NCBI GenBank assembly: GCA_004297765.1
Contig: SCTZ01000158.1
Span: 1-38,278, forward strand
Direction: 5' to 3'
Origin: Chloroflexota bacterium
Lineage (GTDB): Bacteria; Chloroflexota; Dehalococcoidia; FW602-bin16
DNA length: 38,278 bases
The number at the start of each line of letters is the position of its first letter. Position 1 is the stretch's first letter. This document shows, piece by piece, positions 30,935 to 36,769 of the stretch. The notes beneath the pieces are model-generated. The model saw only the letters and a list, made by a program, of their open reading frames with translations, was not told the DNA's origin and did no database searches. Both the position numbers and the translations under genes were made by a program.

Positions 30935-31786
30935 ATGAACTCTATCGCCATAGGGATCGATCCCATGATTGCCCATTTGGGTGGATTCGAGCTCCGATGG
31001 TATGGCCTGGCGATCGTGGCAGCCGTGGTCGTCGGCATCTGGGTGGCTACTATGGAGGCGAAACGCAGAGGGATCTCGGCCGACGACATCCAGTCCCTGG
31101 GAATGTGGAGCGTCATAGGCGGCATCATCGGGGCACGCCTCTTCCACGTCCTGGACAAGTGGGAGTTCTATCTCGCCAACCCTCACCAGATCCTGGCCTT
31201 ACAGCAAGGGGGGCTAGCCATCTGGGGCGGTGTGGTCGGCGGTGTCGCGGTTGGAGCGGTCTACGCGCGCCGCAGGAAGCTTCCGCTCGCGATCACAGCG
31301 GATATCGGTGCTCTGGGGCTCATCACCGGCCAGATCATTGGTCGGATTGGCTGCTTGATAAACGGCGACGCGGTTGGAGGTCCAACCACTCTCCCCTGGG
31401 GTTTCCGCTACGTGAACCCCAACGCGATGTTGCCACAAGCCATCGTCGACTACGCACGCGAACAGGGCAGGAGCGTCGCCGAGATCGCGGTGCAGCCGTA
31501 CCCGCTCTATGATATGGTCTGGAATCTGGGGGTCCTGGCGATCCTATGGCATCTGCGCACGCGAACACGGCTGAATGGTCTGATCTTCTTTACGTACGTC
31601 GCCCTGTACGGAGCCGGCCGCTTCGTTTTAAGCTTCGTAAGAGTGGAGGACCAGATCTTCCTGGGACTGCAACAGGCCCAGCTTATCGCCCTCGGTATGA
31701 TGCTCGCCGGAATCGTAGCCGTGGTCTACCTGCTGGGAAAGAGCAAGAAGACAGCTCTCGCAGGCCGTGCCCTGAGCGCTTCCTGA
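30935..31786 (+). CDS. lgt: Prolipoprotein diacylglyceryl transferase Lgt (copy 1)
   Basis: The 283-residue polytopic protein shows the Lgt hallmarks: the N-terminal IDPMIAHLGGFELRWYGLAI, RLFHVLDKWEFY, and the signature GQIIGRIGCLINGDAVGGPT near residues 130-150, followed by YPLYDMVWNLGV. Lgt transfers diacylglycerol from phosphatidylglycerol to the lipobox Cys of prolipoproteins. It starts with ATG at 30935 after GAGGT. A second, diverged Lgt lies at 35089-35877. Whether this copy belongs to the SPFH unit (57-bp gap) is unclear. Confidence 0.93.
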   Translation: MNSIAIGIDPMIAHLGGFELRWYGLAIVAAVVVGIWVATMEAKRRGISADDIQSLGMWSVIGGIIGARLFHVLDKWEFYLANPHQILALQQGGLAIWGGVVGGVAVGAVYARRRKLPLAITADIGALGLITGQIIGRIGCLINGDAVGGPTTLPWGFRYVNPNAMLPQAIVDYAREQGRSVAEIAVQPYPLYDMVWNLGVLAILWHLRTRTRLNGLIFFTYVALYGAGRFVLSFVRVEDQIFLGLQQAQLIALGMMLAGIVAVVYLLGKSKKTALAGRALSAS

Positions 31787-31824: not shown

Positions 31825-31872
31825 TGGACATGTGGAGCGTCGTGTTATAAGATATATCTATCAATCGCGATA
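31825..31872 (+). promoter_or_regulatory. Promoter and operator of the mer operon
   Basis: TGGACA (31825-31830), a 17-bp spacer and TAAGAT (31848-31853) form a good promoter. Overlapping the -10 box and start site are a perfect 10-bp palindrome (AGATATATCT, 31850-31859) and a TATC-N6-GATA dyad (31859-31872). An AT-rich dyad at this position is where ArsR-type repressors bind, so autorepression by the gene at 31900 is likely. Confidence 0.65.
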
Positions 31873-31899
31873 CCACGATAGCTACTCTGGAGGTCCCCT

Positions 31900-32244
31900 A
31901 TGACGACCGCATATTCTGGCATCGATATGACGAGCGCGCAGTTCGAGCTCGACGCCAAGTTCTTCCGTGGACTGGCCGATCCCACGCGAGTGCGCATTCT
32001 GGACTTCCTGCTCGAAGGGGAGAAGAACGTGGGGCAAATCGTGGATTACCTGGGCGCTCCGCAGAGCAGCGTCTCGATGCACTTGACTTGTCTCCGCTGG
32101 TGTGGCTACGTCTCCGCGCGGAAGGATGGCAGGCACGTGTACTACAAGGTGACCGATGAGCGGGTGCGCGAAATCATCCGGCTGGCGCGTGCCATTATCG
32201 CAGACAACGCTCAGGCAATCCTTTCCTGCCAGGTGATCAGGTAG
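31900..32244 (+). CDS. ArsR/SmtB-family metal-responsive repressor, CmtR-like
   Basis: The 114-residue winged-helix protein has the ArsR core (KFFRGLADPTRVRILDFLLE) and recognition helix (PQSSVSMHLTCLRWCGYV), then the wing ARKDGRHVYYKV. Cys64 and Cys68 in HLTCLRWC coincide with the Cys pair of mycobacterial CmtR (HLxCLRxC), and Cys110 near the C-terminus matches CmtR's third ligand. Such sensors release DNA when Cd, Pb or Hg binds. It is first in the mer operon, 13 bases before merB, behind a promoter with overlapping dyads. It replaces the MerR activator of classical mer operons; ArsR-type mer regulators are known in actinobacteria. Confidence 0.92.
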   Translation: MTTAYSGIDMTSAQFELDAKFFRGLADPTRVRILDFLLEGEKNVGQIVDYLGAPQSSVSMHLTCLRWCGYVSARKDGRHVYYKVTDERVREIIRLARAIIADNAQAILSCQVIR

Positions 32245-32257
32245 CGGGAGGCAAGCG

Positions 32258-32920
32258 TTGAGTTCAGTTCGCACAGAAGGACTCGAGGAGCACTTGCATT
32301 CGTTGTCGCCGGGAGAGCAGGCCGTGGGTCTCGCGGCCTTTCGGCTTATTCTTGATGGAACCGCGGCCTCAATCGATGTCATCGCCGACCGCGCGGGCCT
32401 CCCGCGAGATGACGTGGAGAGTATCGTCTCTCAACTGGCCCAGCGCGGCCTGATCGTGGTCGACAGCTCGGGGGATGTGGTCGGCAGTTGGGGACTCTCG
32501 CTACTGCCCATGGTCCACCGGCTGCGGATCGCCGGCCGCGACCTCTACACCTGGTGTGCCGAGGACGCCATCGGCATCCCCGCGGCCCTGGACGAAGATG
32601 CCACTATCTCGTCTCGCTGCTTCCAGTGCGGCGAGCCGCTCACCATCGAGATATGCGCCGGGCACGATGCCCGCGCCTCCGCTCCGAACGTTCGCATCTG
32701 GCTGGTCGAGGCGGAGATCGGCCGCTCTATCGTTGGCTGCACCTGACCGCTCATCAACTTCTTTTGCTCGGTCGAGCACCTGGAAGAGTGGCGTAGCCAG
32801 AACGAGAAACAGGCCGGGCAGCCTGTTTCTGTAGCCGAGGCCGCGGAGTTGGGCCGGCGCTGGTGGAGATGGGCAGCGCGAAACCGAGATGAAAGGGAAA
32901 TGGGAGGACAGATCGCATGA
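32258..32920 (+). CDS. merB: Alkylmercury lyase MerB with in-frame TGA at the catalytic Cys (probable selenoprotein)
   Basis: It starts with TTG at 32258, six bases after GGGAGG. A MerB domain is clear: DLYTWCAEDAIGIPAAL carries Cys100 and Asp103, the counterparts of Cys96 and Asp99 of the R831b enzyme. Codon 163 is TGA (32744-32746). It lies exactly 63 residues after Cys100, the same distance as Cys96 to Cys159, the second catalytic cysteine. After it the frame continues as MerB (PLINFFCSVEHLEEWR...) for 57 residues and stops with TGA in an ATGA overlap with merA. Total 220 residues, against 212 for the family. A hairpin with a GGTC loop follows at SECIS distance. MerB protonolyses C-Hg bonds and passes Hg(II) to MerA. 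I infer selenocysteine at 163; the alternative is a nonsense mutation or base-call error. Confidence 0.85.
32758..32786 (+). promoter_or_regulatory. Candidate bacterial SECIS hairpin in merB
   Basis: The upper stem TGCTC (32765-32769) / GAGCA (32774-32778) closes a GGTC loop starting 24 bases after the TGA. A lower stem CTTC (32758-32761) / GAAG (32783-32786) follows beyond a small internal loop. Known bacterial SECIS elements have the apical loop about 16-37 bases after UGA with a G among its first two bases, and that of E. coli fdhF contains the same GGTC. SelB would bind it. Confidence 0.7.
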
Positions 32921-34581
32921 GCAATCCGAGCAACGACCGAGCATTGCGCATGAAAGTCGACGGCATGACCTGCGAGCATTGCGAGCTGAGCGTGGTCAAG
33001 TCCCTGCAAGATGTCGGCGTAAGCGACGTGCGCGTTGACCATCGTCGCGGGGAGGCGATCTTCAACGCTCCCGCGGACGTTGATCCGGCCATCCTGGCCA
33101 GAGCGGTCAGCAGGGCTGGCTACCAGCCGGGGCCCGTGGAGACTGTGGAGACGTCAGGCGCAGGCAGATTCCCTGCCTCGCCAGATGGGGACTACGACTT
33201 GGCCATCGTCGGCTCCGGCGGCGCGGCCTTCGCGGCCGCCATCCGCGCTCGCGAGCTGGGCGCCCGCGTGGTCATGATCGAGAGGGACACCCTTGGGGGC
33301 ACCTGTGTCAATGTCGGCTGCGTGCCCAGCAAGACCTTGCTGCACGCCGGCGACCTCTACCATCAGGCCGGCCATCACCCCTTCCGCGGCATTCATACGG
33401 TTCAGGAGGGCGTGGTTCTGGGGCCCCTGGTCGACCAGAAGAACGAGCTCGTTCACACTCTGCGGCGGGAAAAGTACGAGGAGCTGATCGCGGAATATGG
33501 CTGGGATCTCGTCCGCGGCGAGGCGCGGTTCCTCGATGGGGAGCGCCTGGAAGTCGACGGGGAGGTCGTCACTGCTTCACGCATCCTGATCGCCACCGGC
33601 GCCTCGCCGGCCGTCCCGTCCATCCCCGGCTTGGCCGAGGCTGGCTACCTGACCAGCACCACGGCCCTCGCGCTGTCGGAGGTGCCCGAGAGCCTGGTCG
33701 TTATTGGCTCCGGCTTCATCGCGCTGGAGCTGGGACAGCTCTTTCGCCACCTGGGCAGCCACGTGACGGTCATGCAGCGCAGCCCGCGCATTCTGAAAGG
33801 CTACGAGCCAGAAGTGGCGGAGGCCGTCTACGAAGCGCTGTCGGAGCAGGGGATGAGCTTCGTCACGGGGGCCCGATTCACGCGGGTGGAGAAGAGGTCA
33901 CCTGGCTATCATGTTGCCGTCGAGGTTGGAGGTGAAACCCGAGCGGTGGAGGCCGAACAGCTTCTGGTAGCCATCGGTCGACGGCCGAACACCGCGGCTC
34001 TGCACCTGGACCGAGCCGGCGTCAAGGTCGGACCTCTCGGCGAGATCGTGGTAGACGCACACCTGCGCACGACGAACCCGTGCATCTTCGCCGCGGGCGA
34101 CGTGACGGCCGGGCCGCAGTTCGTCTACGTCGCGGCCTACCAAGGGACGCTGGCGGCGGAGAACGCCCTCAGCGGAGCGCAGCGGAGAGTCGACCTCAGT
34201 GCCGTGCCGGCGGTTGTGTTCACCAGTCCTTCGATCGCCACCGTGGGACTCACCGAGGAACAAGCCAAAGCAGCCGGGCACGCCGTGAAGAACTCCGTTC
34301 TACCGGTGAAAGCGGTCCCGCGTGCGCTGGTCAACCATGACACGCACGGCGTCTTCAAGATCGTCGCGGACTCATCAACGGACCGCATCCTCGGCGTGCA
34401 CGTGGTGTCCGAGAACGCGGGGGACGTGATCTATGCCGCGACCCTGGCGGTGAAGTTTGACCTGACGGTCCACGACCTGGTTTCGACCTTCGCGCCCTAC
34501 CTGACCATGGCCGAGGGGCTCAAGCTGGCTGCTCAGACCTTCGGGAAGGACGTAGCCAAGCTCTCGTGCTGCGCTTCGTGA
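32917..34581 (+). CDS. merA: Mercuric reductase MerA with N-terminal HMA domain
   Basis: The 554-residue protein has an HMA domain with DGMTCEHC (Cys19, Cys22), an FAD Rossmann fold (AIVGSGGAAFAAAIRARELG), the redox-active GGTCVNVGCVPSK (Cys130, Cys135), the NADPH-binding GSGFIALELGQLF, the FAD motif IFAAGDVTAGPQF, the dimer domain, and the C-terminal vicinal pair in KLSCCAS (Cys551, Cys552) that receives Hg(II). All catalytic cysteines are ordinary Cys codons. It reduces Hg(II) to Hg(0) in the cytoplasm. Its start overlaps the end of the read-through merB frame as ATGA, which ties the two genes' translation together. Confidence 0.96.
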   Translation: MSNPSNDRALRMKVDGMTCEHCELSVVKSLQDVGVSDVRVDHRRGEAIFNAPADVDPAILARAVSRAGYQPGPVETVETSGAGRFPASPDGDYDLAIVGSGGAAFAAAIRARELGARVVMIERDTLGGTCVNVGCVPSKTLLHAGDLYHQAGHHPFRGIHTVQEGVVLGPLVDQKNELVHTLRREKYEELIAEYGWDLVRGEARFLDGERLEVDGEVVTASRILIATGASPAVPSIPGLAEAGYLTSTTALALSEVPESLVVIGSGFIALELGQLFRHLGSHVTVMQRSPRILKGYEPEVAEAVYEALSEQGMSFVTGARFTRVEKRSPGYHVAVEVGGETRAVEAEQLLVAIGRRPNTAALHLDRAGVKVGPLGEIVVDAHLRTTNPCIFAAGDVTAGPQFVYVAAYQGTLAAENALSGAQRRVDLSAVPAVVFTSPSIATVGLTEEQAKAAGHAVKNSVLPVKAVPRALVNHDTHGVFKIVADSSTDRILGVHVVSENAGDVIYAATLAVKFDLTVHDLVSTFAPYLTMAEGLKLAAQTFGKDVAKLSCCAS

Positions 34582-34595
34582 GGAGGACAGAGGAG

Positions 34596-35027
34596 TTGAA
34601 AGCTGTTGAATTCGACAAGAGAGAGCAGATCGGGGCGACAGACGCCTCTACGGAGGCGTCGAGCGGCGGCGCCACGGCGTCGCTAGGCGTGGGGCTGATT
34701 GGCGCCCTCGTCGGCAGCCTCTGCTGCCTTCTGCCGGCCCTGGCCTTGACGGTGGGCCTGGCTGGTGCCGCGGGGCTGGTCCAGCTCGGCGCGTATCAGC
34801 CCTACTTCCTCGCTGCAAGCCTGCTCTTTGTGGGCGGATGGAACTGGTACATGGTGCAGCGGCGCAAGAGCTGCTGCACGACCGTCGACCAGAGGAGAGC
34901 CTTGTACGCGTCGGCGATCCTCTCGGTCCTGGTGTTCCTGGTGGTCTACGTCGTCATCAACTACGCCATGGTGCCCTGGCTGTACGATCTATGGTCGGAA
35001 AGAATGCCGGCGACGCACTCTATGTAG
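34596..35027 (+). CDS. MerT-like mercuric transport protein (Cys form)
   Basis: TTG at 34596 is the best start, nine bases after AGGAGG overlapping the merA stop; an upstream GTG would lie inside merA. The 143-residue product has an acidic N-terminal extension, then three TM segments. TM1 carries the vicinal pair in GSLCCLLPALALTVGLAGAA, matching the MerT Hg(II) site, and the loop after TM2 carries a second pair (RRKSCCTT), as in MerT. MerT moves Hg(II) inward to MerA. All ligands here are Cys, unlike the second MerT at 36449. Confidence 0.83.
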   Translation: MKAVEFDKREQIGATDASTEASSGGATASLGVGLIGALVGSLCCLLPALALTVGLAGAAGLVQLGAYQPYFLAASLLFVGGWNWYMVQRRKSCCTTVDQRRALYASAILSVLVFLVVYVVINYAMVPWLYDLWSERMPATHSM

Positions 35028-35088
35028 CAGGCGGCACTTTGATGGCCGCTGAGCAGGGCTTTAGCGAAAGGGAGGACGTCTCATAGCC

Positions 35089-35877
35089 ATGATCGTGATC
35101 GACATCGATCCCATGTTGGCCAGGATCGGACCGCTCAACATTAGCTGGCACGGCCTCTTCACGGCCGTCGGCATCCTGGTGGCTGTCGTGCTGGCGGCGC
35201 GCCTGGCAAGGAGAACTGGCTTCGCCGAGGACCACGTGTATGGGCTGGCCCTCTGGGCGGTGCCGGCGGGTGTCGTCGGTGCACGACTCTTCCACGTCGT
35301 CGACGAGTTCGGCTACTACGCGGCGCATCCGCTAGCTATCCTGGCGATTCAGGAGGGCGGGCTGGCTATCTACGGCGGTCTGGCGGGCGGCATTCTCGGC
35401 GGGGTTCTCTACCTTGCTCGTCACGGCCTGCCTCTCGGGCGGTTTGCCGATGCGGTCGCGCCGGCCATCATCTTAGGGCAGGCTATAGGTCGCATCGGCG
35501 ACGTCATCGACGGCGAGCACCACGGCGCGCCCGCGGACCTGCCCTGGTCGGTGGTCTACGTCCATTCGAACACGGCGGGAGAGCAAGGGCTGGCCGTGCA
35601 TCCGTCCGTCGGCTACGAGATGCTGTGGGACCTGGCGGTCTTCGCCGTGCTCCTGGGGCTACGCGACCGGTTGCCGCGCGCGGGAATGCTTTTCTGGACC
35701 TATGTCGTCCTGTATGCTCTCGGGCGCTTCGTGGTGGGCTTCTTCCGCACGGACACGATGCTACTGGGAGGGCTTGGGCAAGCCCAGCTCATCGCCGTCA
35801 TCAGTCTGCTTGTCACGATCCTCGTCCTGGCCGCGCCCTCCCTACGACGAGGCAAGGTTGCGGGTGCAACGGCGTAG
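35089..35877 (+). CDS. lgt: Prolipoprotein diacylglyceryl transferase Lgt (copy 2, in the mer locus)
   Basis: The 262-residue product is a second Lgt: IDPMLARIGPLNISWHGLFT, RLFHVVDEFGYY, and the signature region GQAIGRIGDVIDGEHHGAPA. The core diverges from copy 1 and the usual GRxGNFxNxE form (Asp in place of the first Asn, DGE instead of NxE), so its activity is uncertain. It lies between the Cys-type merT and the MerP-like lipoprotein gene, so its likely client is that lipoprotein. The ATG at 35089 is 13 bases after GGAGG, a weak spacing. Confidence 0.88.
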   Translation: MIVIDIDPMLARIGPLNISWHGLFTAVGILVAVVLAARLARRTGFAEDHVYGLALWAVPAGVVGARLFHVVDEFGYYAAHPLAILAIQEGGLAIYGGLAGGILGGVLYLARHGLPLGRFADAVAPAIILGQAIGRIGDVIDGEHHGAPADLPWSVVYVHSNTAGEQGLAVHPSVGYEMLWDLAVFAVLLGLRDRLPRAGMLFWTYVVLYALGRFVVGFFRTDTMLLGGLGQAQLIAVISLLVTILVLAAPSLRRGKVAGATA

Positions 35878-35914
35878 ATGGAGAAAGAACGCTGAGGAAT
35901 CCAAAGGAGGAACG

Positions 35915-36370
35915 ATGAGGAGAAGCTATCTACTGTTCGGCCTCAGTCTAACGCTGGTGCTGCTCCTGAGCGCGTGCGCGGCCGCCCGGGCGACGCCGAG
36001 CCCCGACGCTCAGCCCACGAGGAGTCCCACGGGGCAACAGGCGGACTCCACGGACGGCAAGAGCGCGCCCAGTCCGGATACCGATTTCCGGAGCATGACG
36101 TCGGATCGACAGCCAGACTCCGCGGAGAACCAGCGGGCCCAATCGTCAGGGCAAGCCACGGTGAGCTTCTTCGTGCCGTCGGTCACCTGACCATCGTGCG
36201 TTCCGCGCGTGACCGCCAGCGCCAAGCAGGTGGCAGGCGTGGAGAAGGTCCAGGTGGACCTACGCACACAGACCGTGACCGTCACGTACGATGCGGCGAA
36301 GACGAATCCGGAGTCCATCAAGAGGGCCCTCGAAGAGGGGGGCGACACCGTGAAGCCGCCTCGTAGTTAA
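35915..36370 (+). CDS. MerP-like HMA lipoprotein with in-frame TGA in the CxxC motif (probable selenoprotein)
   Basis: AAAGGAGG precedes the ATG at 35915. Residues 1-21 are a lipoprotein signal (LTLVLLLSAC, lipid Cys21), followed by a Ser/Pro/Asp-rich linker of about 60 residues. Then VSFFVPSVT leads into TGA (36188-36190, codon 92) and the frame continues PSCVPRVTASAKQVAGVEKV with the rest of an HMA domain to TAA at 36370. Aligned to the HMA signature MTCxxC, the TGA replaces the first metal-binding Cys, giving U92-x2-C95. Without read-through the protein would lack the whole metal domain. A SECIS-like hairpin follows at 36214-36239. It would be a membrane-tethered periplasmic Hg(II) scavenger; the Lgt gene just upstream fits lipid anchoring. 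Total 151 residues. Confidence 0.82.
36214..36239 (+). promoter_or_regulatory. Candidate SECIS hairpin in the MerP-like gene
   Basis: A lower stem CGCC / GGCG (36214-36217 / 36236-36239) and upper stem GCCA / TGGC (36221-36224 / 36231-36234) enclose an AGCAGG loop beginning 35 bases after the TGA, just within the usual range and with a G at loop position two. A competing stem GCGC / GCGC exists at 36205-36222. This is the least convincing of the three hairpins and lacks the GGTC loop. Confidence 0.4.
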
Positions 36371-36448
36371 CAGTGTGCTCGTGCACCTGTCGTGGATGCT
36401 GGGCAGACAAGGACGGCTGACAAGACATGATCGGAGTATGGCAAGGGA

Positions 36449-36769
36449 ATGAAGGAGAAGCTTTCCAGTTTGGGCTCGGTGGGCACGGCCTTCCTAGCCT
36501 CTATTTGCTGACTGGGCCCCTTGGTTTTTGCATCGCTCGGTCTGAGCGGTGTCGGCATAGCAACGGCTGCGTTTCTCACACCGTATAAGCCGGTCTTCCT
36601 GGGGGCAACCATTGCCCTGCTGGGGGCGGCGCATTTCCTGCTGCGCAAGAAGTCCACCGGTAGCCCGTGGAACACACGGATCGTGTGGGGCGCGACCGCG
36701 TTGGTCGCGGGACAGCTGGTGTACTCGGTGGTCAACACCTGGCTGGTATCCGCAAACGGCGGGCAATAA
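36449..36769 (+). CDS. merT: MerT mercuric transporter with in-frame TGA in the TM1 Cys pair (probable selenoprotein)
   Basis: The frame opens with ATG at 36449 and reads MKEKLSSLGSVGTAFLASIC, then TGA (36509-36511, codon 21), then LGPLVFASLGLSGVGIATAA and on to TAA at 36769. MerT proteins have SICCLGP here; the TGA stands exactly at the second Cys of the Hg(II)-binding pair, giving Cys20-Sec21. TM1, TM2 (VFLGATIALLGAAHFLL) and TM3 (VWGATALVAGQLVYSVV) are all present; total 106 residues, close to the 116 of Tn501 MerT. The hairpin at 36530-36552 is an excellent SECIS candidate. Translation ending at the TGA would give only 20 residues. The start-codon context is modest (GGAG 12 bases upstream). 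Confidence 0.85.
36530..36552 (+). promoter_or_regulatory. Candidate bacterial SECIS hairpin in merT
   Basis: A 9-bp stem (36530-36538 with 36544-36552, two G-U pairs) closes a GGTCT loop that begins 28 bases after the TGA. The core CGCTC-GGTCT-GAGCG repeats the loop sequence of the E. coli fdhF SECIS and nearly the whole upper stem of the merB hairpin, although the two genes are unrelated in sequence. Confidence 0.75.

Follow-up and report, generated by a model that had tools for sequence, protein, structure and literature searches.

The locus described here lies on contig SCTZ01000158.1 of a Chloroflexota bacterium (assembly GCA_004297765.1), and the whole stretch of 38,278 nucleotides that was analysed is called the window in the following. 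It is a mer-type operon with three TGA codons at cysteine sites for mercury binding or catalysis. These codons are likely read as selenocysteine (Sec), and the operon is predicted to encode a selenolate-armed pathway for mercury uptake and organomercury cleavage. Seven genes follow one another on the plus strand between positions 31900 and 36769, encoding an ArsR-type regulator, MerB, MerA, MerT1, Lgt, an HMA lipoprotein and MerT2 (Table 1), just as an original prediction made from the DNA letters had listed them. That prediction also placed Sec at the mercury-contacting residue of three of the seven proteins, and the TGAs behind this are confirmed: the reading frames of merB, the lipoprotein gene and merT2 are open across a TGA that occupies the position of a cysteine in homologous proteins. 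MerA, its HMA domain and MerT1 all retain cysteine in the translated sequences, as had likewise been stated.

The TGA of merB aligns with Cys159 of the E. coli enzyme in the alignment with PDB structures; the residue equivalent to this catalytic cysteine is thus not a cysteine in the window protein but the TGA-encoded residue 163. Sec is the selenium analogue of cysteine. Residues C100 and D103, both in the motif YTWCAEDA, correspond to Cys96 and Asp99 of E. coli MerB. Passages of an earlier publication describe Cys96, Asp99 and Cys159 as essential and strictly conserved MerB residues (PMC8261052). In 49 of 400 phylum genomes searched, 57 MerB matches were obtained: 17 contain one TGA, one contains two, two contain a TAG and 37 contain none; among 393 genomes of the class, 23 had relatives. 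Scanning named genomes identified six MerB loci (L059-L064). Four closer relatives carry a TGA at the same place, namely those of a Bacillota metagenome-assembled genome (MAG; L059), an unplaced bacterium (L060), a Rokuibacteriota MAG (L061) and a Deltaproteobacteria MAG (L062), and a cysteine is found there in Geobacter argillaceus (L063) and in an archaeal MAG (L064).

Matches that had been given a locus (from the 57 phylum matches and 27 further ones) were aligned; 53 loci entered the alignment and L096 gave no match. The Cys159 column of the remaining 52 loci, window included, holds TGA in 17, cysteine in 34 and leucine in one (L087). In 16 of the 17 loci this is the sole TGA of the compared stretch, and L093 has two. 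A database of 5.8 billion predicted proteins contains 61 MerB homologues, the window protein included: 32 (again with the window protein) stop exactly before the column, 27 have a cysteine, P0002 has an arginine and P0051 is unaligned there, while the Cys96 position is a cysteine in all 61. Since TGA occupies the same column in 17 of 52 loci and 32 of 61 database proteins end before it, chance can be excluded. A tree was calculated from the part of MerB that precedes the column (63 rows; P0014, P0031, P0051 and P0052 were left out). On this tree the Sec/Cys label changes five times, at least four of these changes being forced by well-supported branches, and P0038 (Sec) and P0004 (Cys) are sisters.

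We also observed a longer MerB-like subfamily with a motif like FTUGTMNLFRSEEH. The eight loci that match it closely (L042, L046, L047, L050, L084, L088, L090 and L094) all carry TGA at the Cys159 column; weaker matches to the same query have TGA (L092) or cysteine (L095). A GGTC hairpin is located 3' of the TGA in all four long merB genes tested. In another protein, P0014 (355 aa), a cysteine-type HMA domain, a ferredoxin-like part (recognised by eye) and MerB are fused, and this protein ends exactly before the Sec column.

In the HMA lipoprotein the TGA replaces the first cysteine of the CxxC motif, giving UPSC where all nine database homologues (P0065-P0073) have CPSC. The TGA of merT2 replaces the second cysteine of a vicinal pair, resulting in CU in the window protein compared to CC in P0064. 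Three MerT2 proteins are present in the protein database: the window protein, whose database version begins behind the TGA, P0063, which also begins beyond this point, and P0064. Relatives of MerT2 were detected in 6 of 400 phylum genomes and in 3 of 60 relatives, the source genome included both times, and no solved structure matched merT2. Named relatives of the window MerB and MerT2 include Chloroflexi and Dehalococcoidales MAGs (P0010, P0063, P0051). P0010 (MerB) and P0063 (MerT2) probably lie in one operon, because their locus tags are near each other (HY675_05010 and HY675_04990) and their contigs, both in Chloroflexi MAG records, are equally long. Both transporters had been called MerT: this is confirmed for merT2, which clears the Pfam MerT cut-off, but merT1 falls slightly below it (Table 1).

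A second kind of MerT-like protein, with the motif CLAU (CxxU), occurs twice in genome G121 and once in G270 (L073:3909-4163, L074:4321-4617 and L079:5001-5276). In G270 a rhodanese-like stretch, seen by eye, is located 3' of the CLAU gene in the same direction. The CLAU proteins resemble the C/SxxU protein found in passages of a review (PMC13188914).

The original prediction proposed a search for neighbouring merB, HMA and merT genes with TGA in other genomes. The full trio was indeed found in the Bacillota MAG, where a relative of the ArsR regulator and a ferredoxin gene are followed consecutively by MerT(U), an HMA lipoprotein(U) and MerB(U), U denoting Sec. A pair was found in G121, which belongs to another family of the same phylum: HMA(U), MerT(U) with 65% identity and MerA with 67% identity are encoded consecutively; the contig begins inside the HMA gene, which hides any lipobox. 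G417 encodes ArsR, MerA, a cysteine-type MerT and an HMA protein with the motif GMTUDGC. Upstream of MerB(U), L061 and L062 have HMA genes with two TGAs (UxxU), and in Geobacter argillaceus all-cysteine MerT, HMA, MerB and MerA lie side by side. HMA matches in these other loci were obtained with the L059 and L061 proteins as queries and by direct translation. Relatives of the regulator are 51% identical in L059, 5' of the ferredoxin gene and the Sec trio, and 49% identical in G417 (L075), 5' of MerA.

Purifying selection persists 3' of the TGAs. The synonymous rate (dS) could be computed for five of six pairs of TGA-bearing relatives, and in all five the nonsynonymous rate (dN) is lower behind the TGA (dN/dS pairs: HMA 0.32/0.84, MerT 0.36/2.00, MerB 0.25/1.54 and 0.25/0.68, long MerB 0.24/0.77). 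These data bear on the explanation that the genes are in decay and that their three TGAs are either nonsense mutations or sequencing errors. Gene callers do break the genes at the TGAs, the database MerB being only 162 aa long and the database MerT2 starting after its TGA. However, distant genomes have TGA or cysteine in the same column, the sequence beyond the TGA is still under selection, and a genome from another phylum, the Bacillota MAG, has the trio as well. In addition, the stop of the read-through merB overlaps the start of merA (ATGA, 32917-32920), an arrangement that arises only if the first merB TGA is translated. On the grounds of recurrence and selection, decay was rejected and has next to no probability left; the original prediction had named errors or unconserved mutations as what would overturn it, and what was found instead are Sec/Cys pairs under purifying selection in several phyla.

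Sec genes in the genome were the other point on which that prediction depended, and they are present. The source genome encodes SelA (524.3 bits), SelB (354.6 bits), a tRNA-Sec (70.4 bits; anticodon tca according to ARAGORN) and two different SelDs above cut-off (L019 and L020, on contigs C193 and C194). Each selD gene has one TGA at the active-site position, in the contexts GAGUACK and CAGUAAK. If TGA were generally reassigned, or read by a suppressor tRNA, as cysteine or tryptophan, the three frames would be open too, as they are with any sense reading of the codon. Nevertheless, merA (34579-34581), the read-through merB (32918-32920) and the upstream lgt all end at TGA, the genome has a full Sec gene set with TGA-bearing SelDs, and the TGAs replace cysteines at metal-binding or catalytic positions. 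The TGA stops and the Sec genes led us to reject reassignment, which is barely conceivable. The ordinary TGA stop of merA had been noticed before, and because TGA doubles as a stop, Sec decoding depends on context. Altogether, Sec decoding of the three TGAs is well supported by the Sec/Cys column of MerB, the trio in the Bacillota MAG, the TGA-bearing HMA-MerT pair beside MerA and the selection past the TGAs.

For such context, hairpins that could act as selenocysteine insertion sequences (SECIS) were investigated at 23 sites by comparing a hairpin rule (loop with RGT) to synonymous recoding; the HMA genes of L061 and L062 were left out. This strict rule was set after the hairpins had been seen, making the p values optimistic. 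The values are 0.002 for the window merT2, 0.004 for merT of G121, 0.010 for merT of L059, 0.004 for merB of G365 and 0.006 for merB of G390; p is also below 0.05 in three of four long merB genes and one of three CLAU merT genes. A looser rule, which requires a G in the first two loop bases, corresponds to the published bacterial SECIS model. Comparison of the window with L059 or L072 reveals two compensatory changes in the merT2 stem, C-G to A-T and G-C to A-T, which preserve its pairing around an unchanged GGTCT loop; L079 and L074 have a C-C mismatch at the fourth pair. The merB stem is identical in the five Sec merB genes compared (window and L059-L062). A SECIS is thus supported for merT2, evidence for one is weak for merB, and it is weakest for the HMA lipoprotein. 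Context-dependent decoding, as originally proposed, has therefore gained a covarying hairpin after the merT2 TGA but little for the other two genes.

Table 1. Genes, predicted Sec codons and candidate SECIS hairpins of the locus in the window.
Feature	Position	Strand	Basis
ArsR/SmtB-type metalloregulator, first gene of the locus	31900..32244	+	NF033788 85.6 bits, cut-off 55; PF01022
merB, organomercurial lyase, predicted Sec at residue 163	32258..32920	+	PF03243 104.9 bits, cut-off 27; PDB alignment
TGA predicted to be read as Sec, merB codon 163	32744..32746	+	frame open across TGA; homologue alignments
Hairpin TGCTC-GGTC-GAGCA, candidate SECIS apical stem-loop after merB TGA	32765..32778	+	synonymous-recoding p 0.134
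merA, mercury(II) reductase, N-terminal HMA domain, all Cys	32917..34581	+	TIGR02053 609 bits, equivalog cut-off 454.45
merT1, Cys-type MerT-like transporter, start uncertain	34566..35027	+	PF02411 30.1 bits, cut-off 32.9; Cys pairs in sequence
lgt, prolipoprotein diacylglyceryl transferase within operon	35089..35877	+	TIGR00544 160.2 bits, cut-off 118.9
MerP-like HMA lipoprotein, lipobox-like LLLSAC, metal motif UPSC	35915..36370	+	PF00403 56.2 bits, cut-off 24.8; MerP structures among PDB matches
TGA predicted to be read as Sec, HMA lipoprotein codon 92	36188..36190	+	frame open across TGA; Cys homologues
merT2, short MerT, CU replacing vicinal Cys pair	36449..36769	+	PF02411 45.7 bits, cut-off 32.9; 65% identical TGA-bearing G121 relative
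TGA predicted to be read as Sec, merT2 codon 21	36509..36511	+	frame open across TGA; TGA-bearing relatives
9-bp hairpin, GGTCT loop, candidate SECIS after merT2 TGA	36530..36552	+	synonymous-recoding p 0.002; two compensatory pairs

A number of observations weigh against the reading as a Sec-based mer operon. Several of them concern the SECIS candidates. Minimum free energy folding of the 50 nucleotides 3' of each TGA at 25 sites showed energies that are not unusual compared with shuffled sequences (mean z -0.51); the control was four ordinary TGA stops (mean z 0.31), and six further stops picked for it proved to be TAG or TAA. Under the strict rule p is below 0.05 at only 9 of the 23 sites, and the looser rule likewise gives 9 of 23, partly different ones. 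The window merB is above this level under the strict rule (p 0.134), and the window lipoprotein has no strict-rule hairpin and reaches p 0.411 under the looser rule. The merB stem is moreover complete in the cysteine gene of L064 and may therefore simply reflect the encoded protein; four of its five pairs are present in the cysteine gene of L063.

Further points concern the Sec machinery. Co-occurrence with Sec genes, which the original prediction wanted checked, was found but is a weak test, SelA being too common in the phylum: it is above cut-off in 43 of the 49 genomes with MerB, namely in 17 of 17 with a one-TGA match and in 26 of the 32 others (hypergeometric, ~0.065). Among the genomes of the six named loci, SelA is above cut-off for L059-L063 and not for L064. 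G270 has a TGA-bearing merT but no SelA match, though its tRNA-Sec scores 76.6 bits, the second best of 18 genomes; in G121 and G417 SelA is present and tRNA-Sec was seen only below the gathering score.

The distribution of the genes is the third field. MerT2 relatives are rare in the phylum, and the window and L059 are the only two loci in which the full TGA trio was seen. In L060 (20.6 kb), L076 (11 kb) and L077 (6.5 kb) no MerA, MerT or HMA was found next to MerB(U); L062 (17 kb) has its HMA genes, and no MerA or MerT was found there. The 31 other database MerB proteins that end at the column presumably do so at a TGA, the comparison being one of protein sequences, and P0002 has an arginine there. 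All three NCBIfam models that match the window MerB stay under their cut-offs (two MerB models with 112.9 vs 193 and 99.2 vs 200 bits, and the SaoL model NF040728 with 55 vs 140), so the substrate may be something other than organomercury. Finally, the 5.64 Mb source assembly, in which the window is contig C211, has a completeness of 99.89% and a contamination of 8.95%.

The SaoL match leads to another explanation, in which the selenoproteins handle an organometal or another metal in the manner of the Sec-assisted organometallic (SAO) operon and do not confer mercury resistance, MerB(U) being a SaoL-like lyase. Besides the weak similarity to SaoL, the trio in L059 speaks for it, being followed by a permease closest to SaoP (136.5 bits, cut-off 295), a TGA-bearing CopZ-like Fe-S protein and a nitrogenase-like subunit. 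However, the MerB models score higher than SaoL on the window protein, and SaoL membership was rejected with 55 bits against a cut-off of 140. The operon also encodes a strong MerA (609 bits) and two MerTs, and MerA is a neighbour in the G121, G417 and Geobacter loci as well. No SaoL above cut-off was found in the 251 phylum genomes searched, the source genome included, and an NCBIfam scan of the seven window genes gave no Sao family apart from the weak SaoL match (for MerA, among the best 25 of 77 families). This explanation is unlikely, though it keeps more weight than any other alternative considered here. Sec could also serve thiol-selenol redox chemistry, as in a UxxC oxidoreductase or antioxidant protein, instead of metal capture, and several bacterial selenoproteins with UxxC do belong to redox families in passages of the review (PMC13188914). 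Here, though, Sec sits in the metal-ligand sites of MerB, HMA and MerT and not in thioredoxin folds, which leaves a redox function very improbable.

The L059 cluster (L059:230-6414) was also noted for its content as such. The permease is of the ABC type, the TGA of the CopZ-like gene is in frame, and there are two nitrogenase-like subunits, the second called by its similarity to the first. Judged by these genes, the cluster is a possible link between mer and SAO systems.

Returning to the reading as a Sec-based mer operon, mercury as its substrate is suggested by MerA, MerT and homology. The ArsR-type repressor (of the ArsR/SmtB class and not MerR-type in NCBIfam and Pfam scans) would free the operon on metal binding. 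The HMA lipoprotein, with LLLSAC presumably being its lipobox, would be anchored with the help of Lgt and would capture Hg(II) or an organomercurial outside the membrane via Sec-x-x-Cys. From there the mercury would pass to MerT2 (Cys-Sec) and MerT1 (Cys-Cys). MerB would then cleave the carbon-mercury bond, C100 and Sec163 serving as the chalcogen ligands and D103 donating the proton, and MerA would take the freed Hg(II) via its cysteine-type HMA domain and reduce it to Hg(0). In this scheme Sec would act at capture, crossing and cleavage, and the final reduction would keep cysteine, maybe needed for mercury release. We infer such a selenolate relay from the aligned MerB residues (Sec at the Cys159 position, C100 and D103) and from selone chemistry: selones mimic the lyase and cleave Hg-C bonds faster than thiones, their sulfur analogues, according to passages of PMC11639659. 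By this analogy Sec would help in dealing with mercury, and the affinity of selenium for this substrate would be an obvious reason for its use.

On balance the data favour, somewhat less firmly than for the operon itself, a selenium-based mercury resistance in more than one phylum, in which a selenolate relay runs from lipoprotein to transporter to lyase and MerB is a selenoenzyme; much of this MerB branch would be UGA-shortened in databases and missed by surveys of methylmercury demethylation. This wider proposal is weakened because MerB(U) also occurs away from mer neighbours and the complete trio was seen in no more than two loci. MerB is the known organomercury-demethylating enzyme of the mer pathway, and its Sec branch, if real, gets cut by gene callers. 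Surveys that require a full-length MerB would then likely miss it, with 32 of 61 homologues ending at that residue. The repeated change in this column, with at least four switches of Sec and Cys within the same protein, also makes it a natural experiment on why organisms bear the cost of selenium.

The surroundings of the operon were inspected as well. The predicted lgt gene within the locus was confirmed, and a further lgt (30935-31786) lies shortly upstream of the mer genes. The two window lgt genes have the motifs GRIGC and GRIGD; the common Lgt motif is GRIGN. A promoter scan 5' of arsR gave one site, no more than expected by chance, and the inverted repeats there are only short (6 nt). 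Between 3004 and 8633 on the minus strand, left of cytochrome c assembly genes, lie phage-type integrase and D5-type primase/helicase genes, which suggests an integrated mobile element. Rfam gave no match above gathering scores in the window.

Sec has been reported singly in MerT-, MerP- and MerB-like proteins. Passages of the review, which dates from 2026, list separate families for a putative mercuric transport selenoprotein (PF02411; ABB16073), a UxxU metal-binding protein and SaoL (PMC13188914), parts of an ocean survey list MerP and putative mercuric transport selenoproteins (PMC2398784), and an alkylmercury lyase MerB-like selenoprotein is listed in a review of 2022 (PMC9312934). A word search of the main texts of PMC5029168 and PMC12013277 found no mercury, MerB or MerT. 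In the literature searched, to which the Haft papers (J Bacteriol 2023; mSystems 2025) did not belong, we found neither a mer operon with MerA and three selenoproteins nor a statement of Sec at the Cys159 position of MerB. That the combination had not been described, as the original prediction supposed, thus holds within this literature for the triple-Sec operon and for a Sec-MerB beside MerA, but not for the single Sec forms.

Compared with known systems, the locus shares MerT, a MerP-like HMA protein, MerB and MerA with the canonical merB-containing mer operon of Geobacter argillaceus. That operon has cysteines at the ligand sites where the window has TGA at three positions, and the window has, in addition, an ArsR-type regulator, an lgt gene dedicated to the locus, the lipoprotein form of HMA and a second MerT. 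The review and the ocean survey also place Sec in single MerT- and MerP-like proteins, which are given, in the parts concerned, family by family and without an operon; the MerT motif of the review, C/SxxU, is shared by the CLAU proteins of G121 and G270, whereas merT2 has CU. NF045683 (a MerT/CopZ fusion-like selenoprotein) and NF041115 (a UxxU metal-binding protein) are likewise MerT- and HMA-type selenoproteins. The window proteins score far under both models (24.3, 37.7 and 27.5 vs 375 for NF045683; 29.4 vs 95 for NF041115), and the window encodes MerT and HMA by separate genes, with UxxC as the HMA motif; the UxxU-type HMA of L061 reaches 92.7 against the NF041115 cut-off of 95. The SAO operon, described with a MerB-like lyase SaoL with the motif CU in passages of PMC13188914, likewise encodes several selenoproteins, among them this MerB-like one (NF040728). 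Unlike it, the window has a MerB well below the SaoL cut-off and MerA and MerT in place of the Sao genes, a comparison of genes and scores and not of Sec positions. The operon of the window would thus join the multi-selenoprotein systems for metal handling, in this case built onto the mer pathway.

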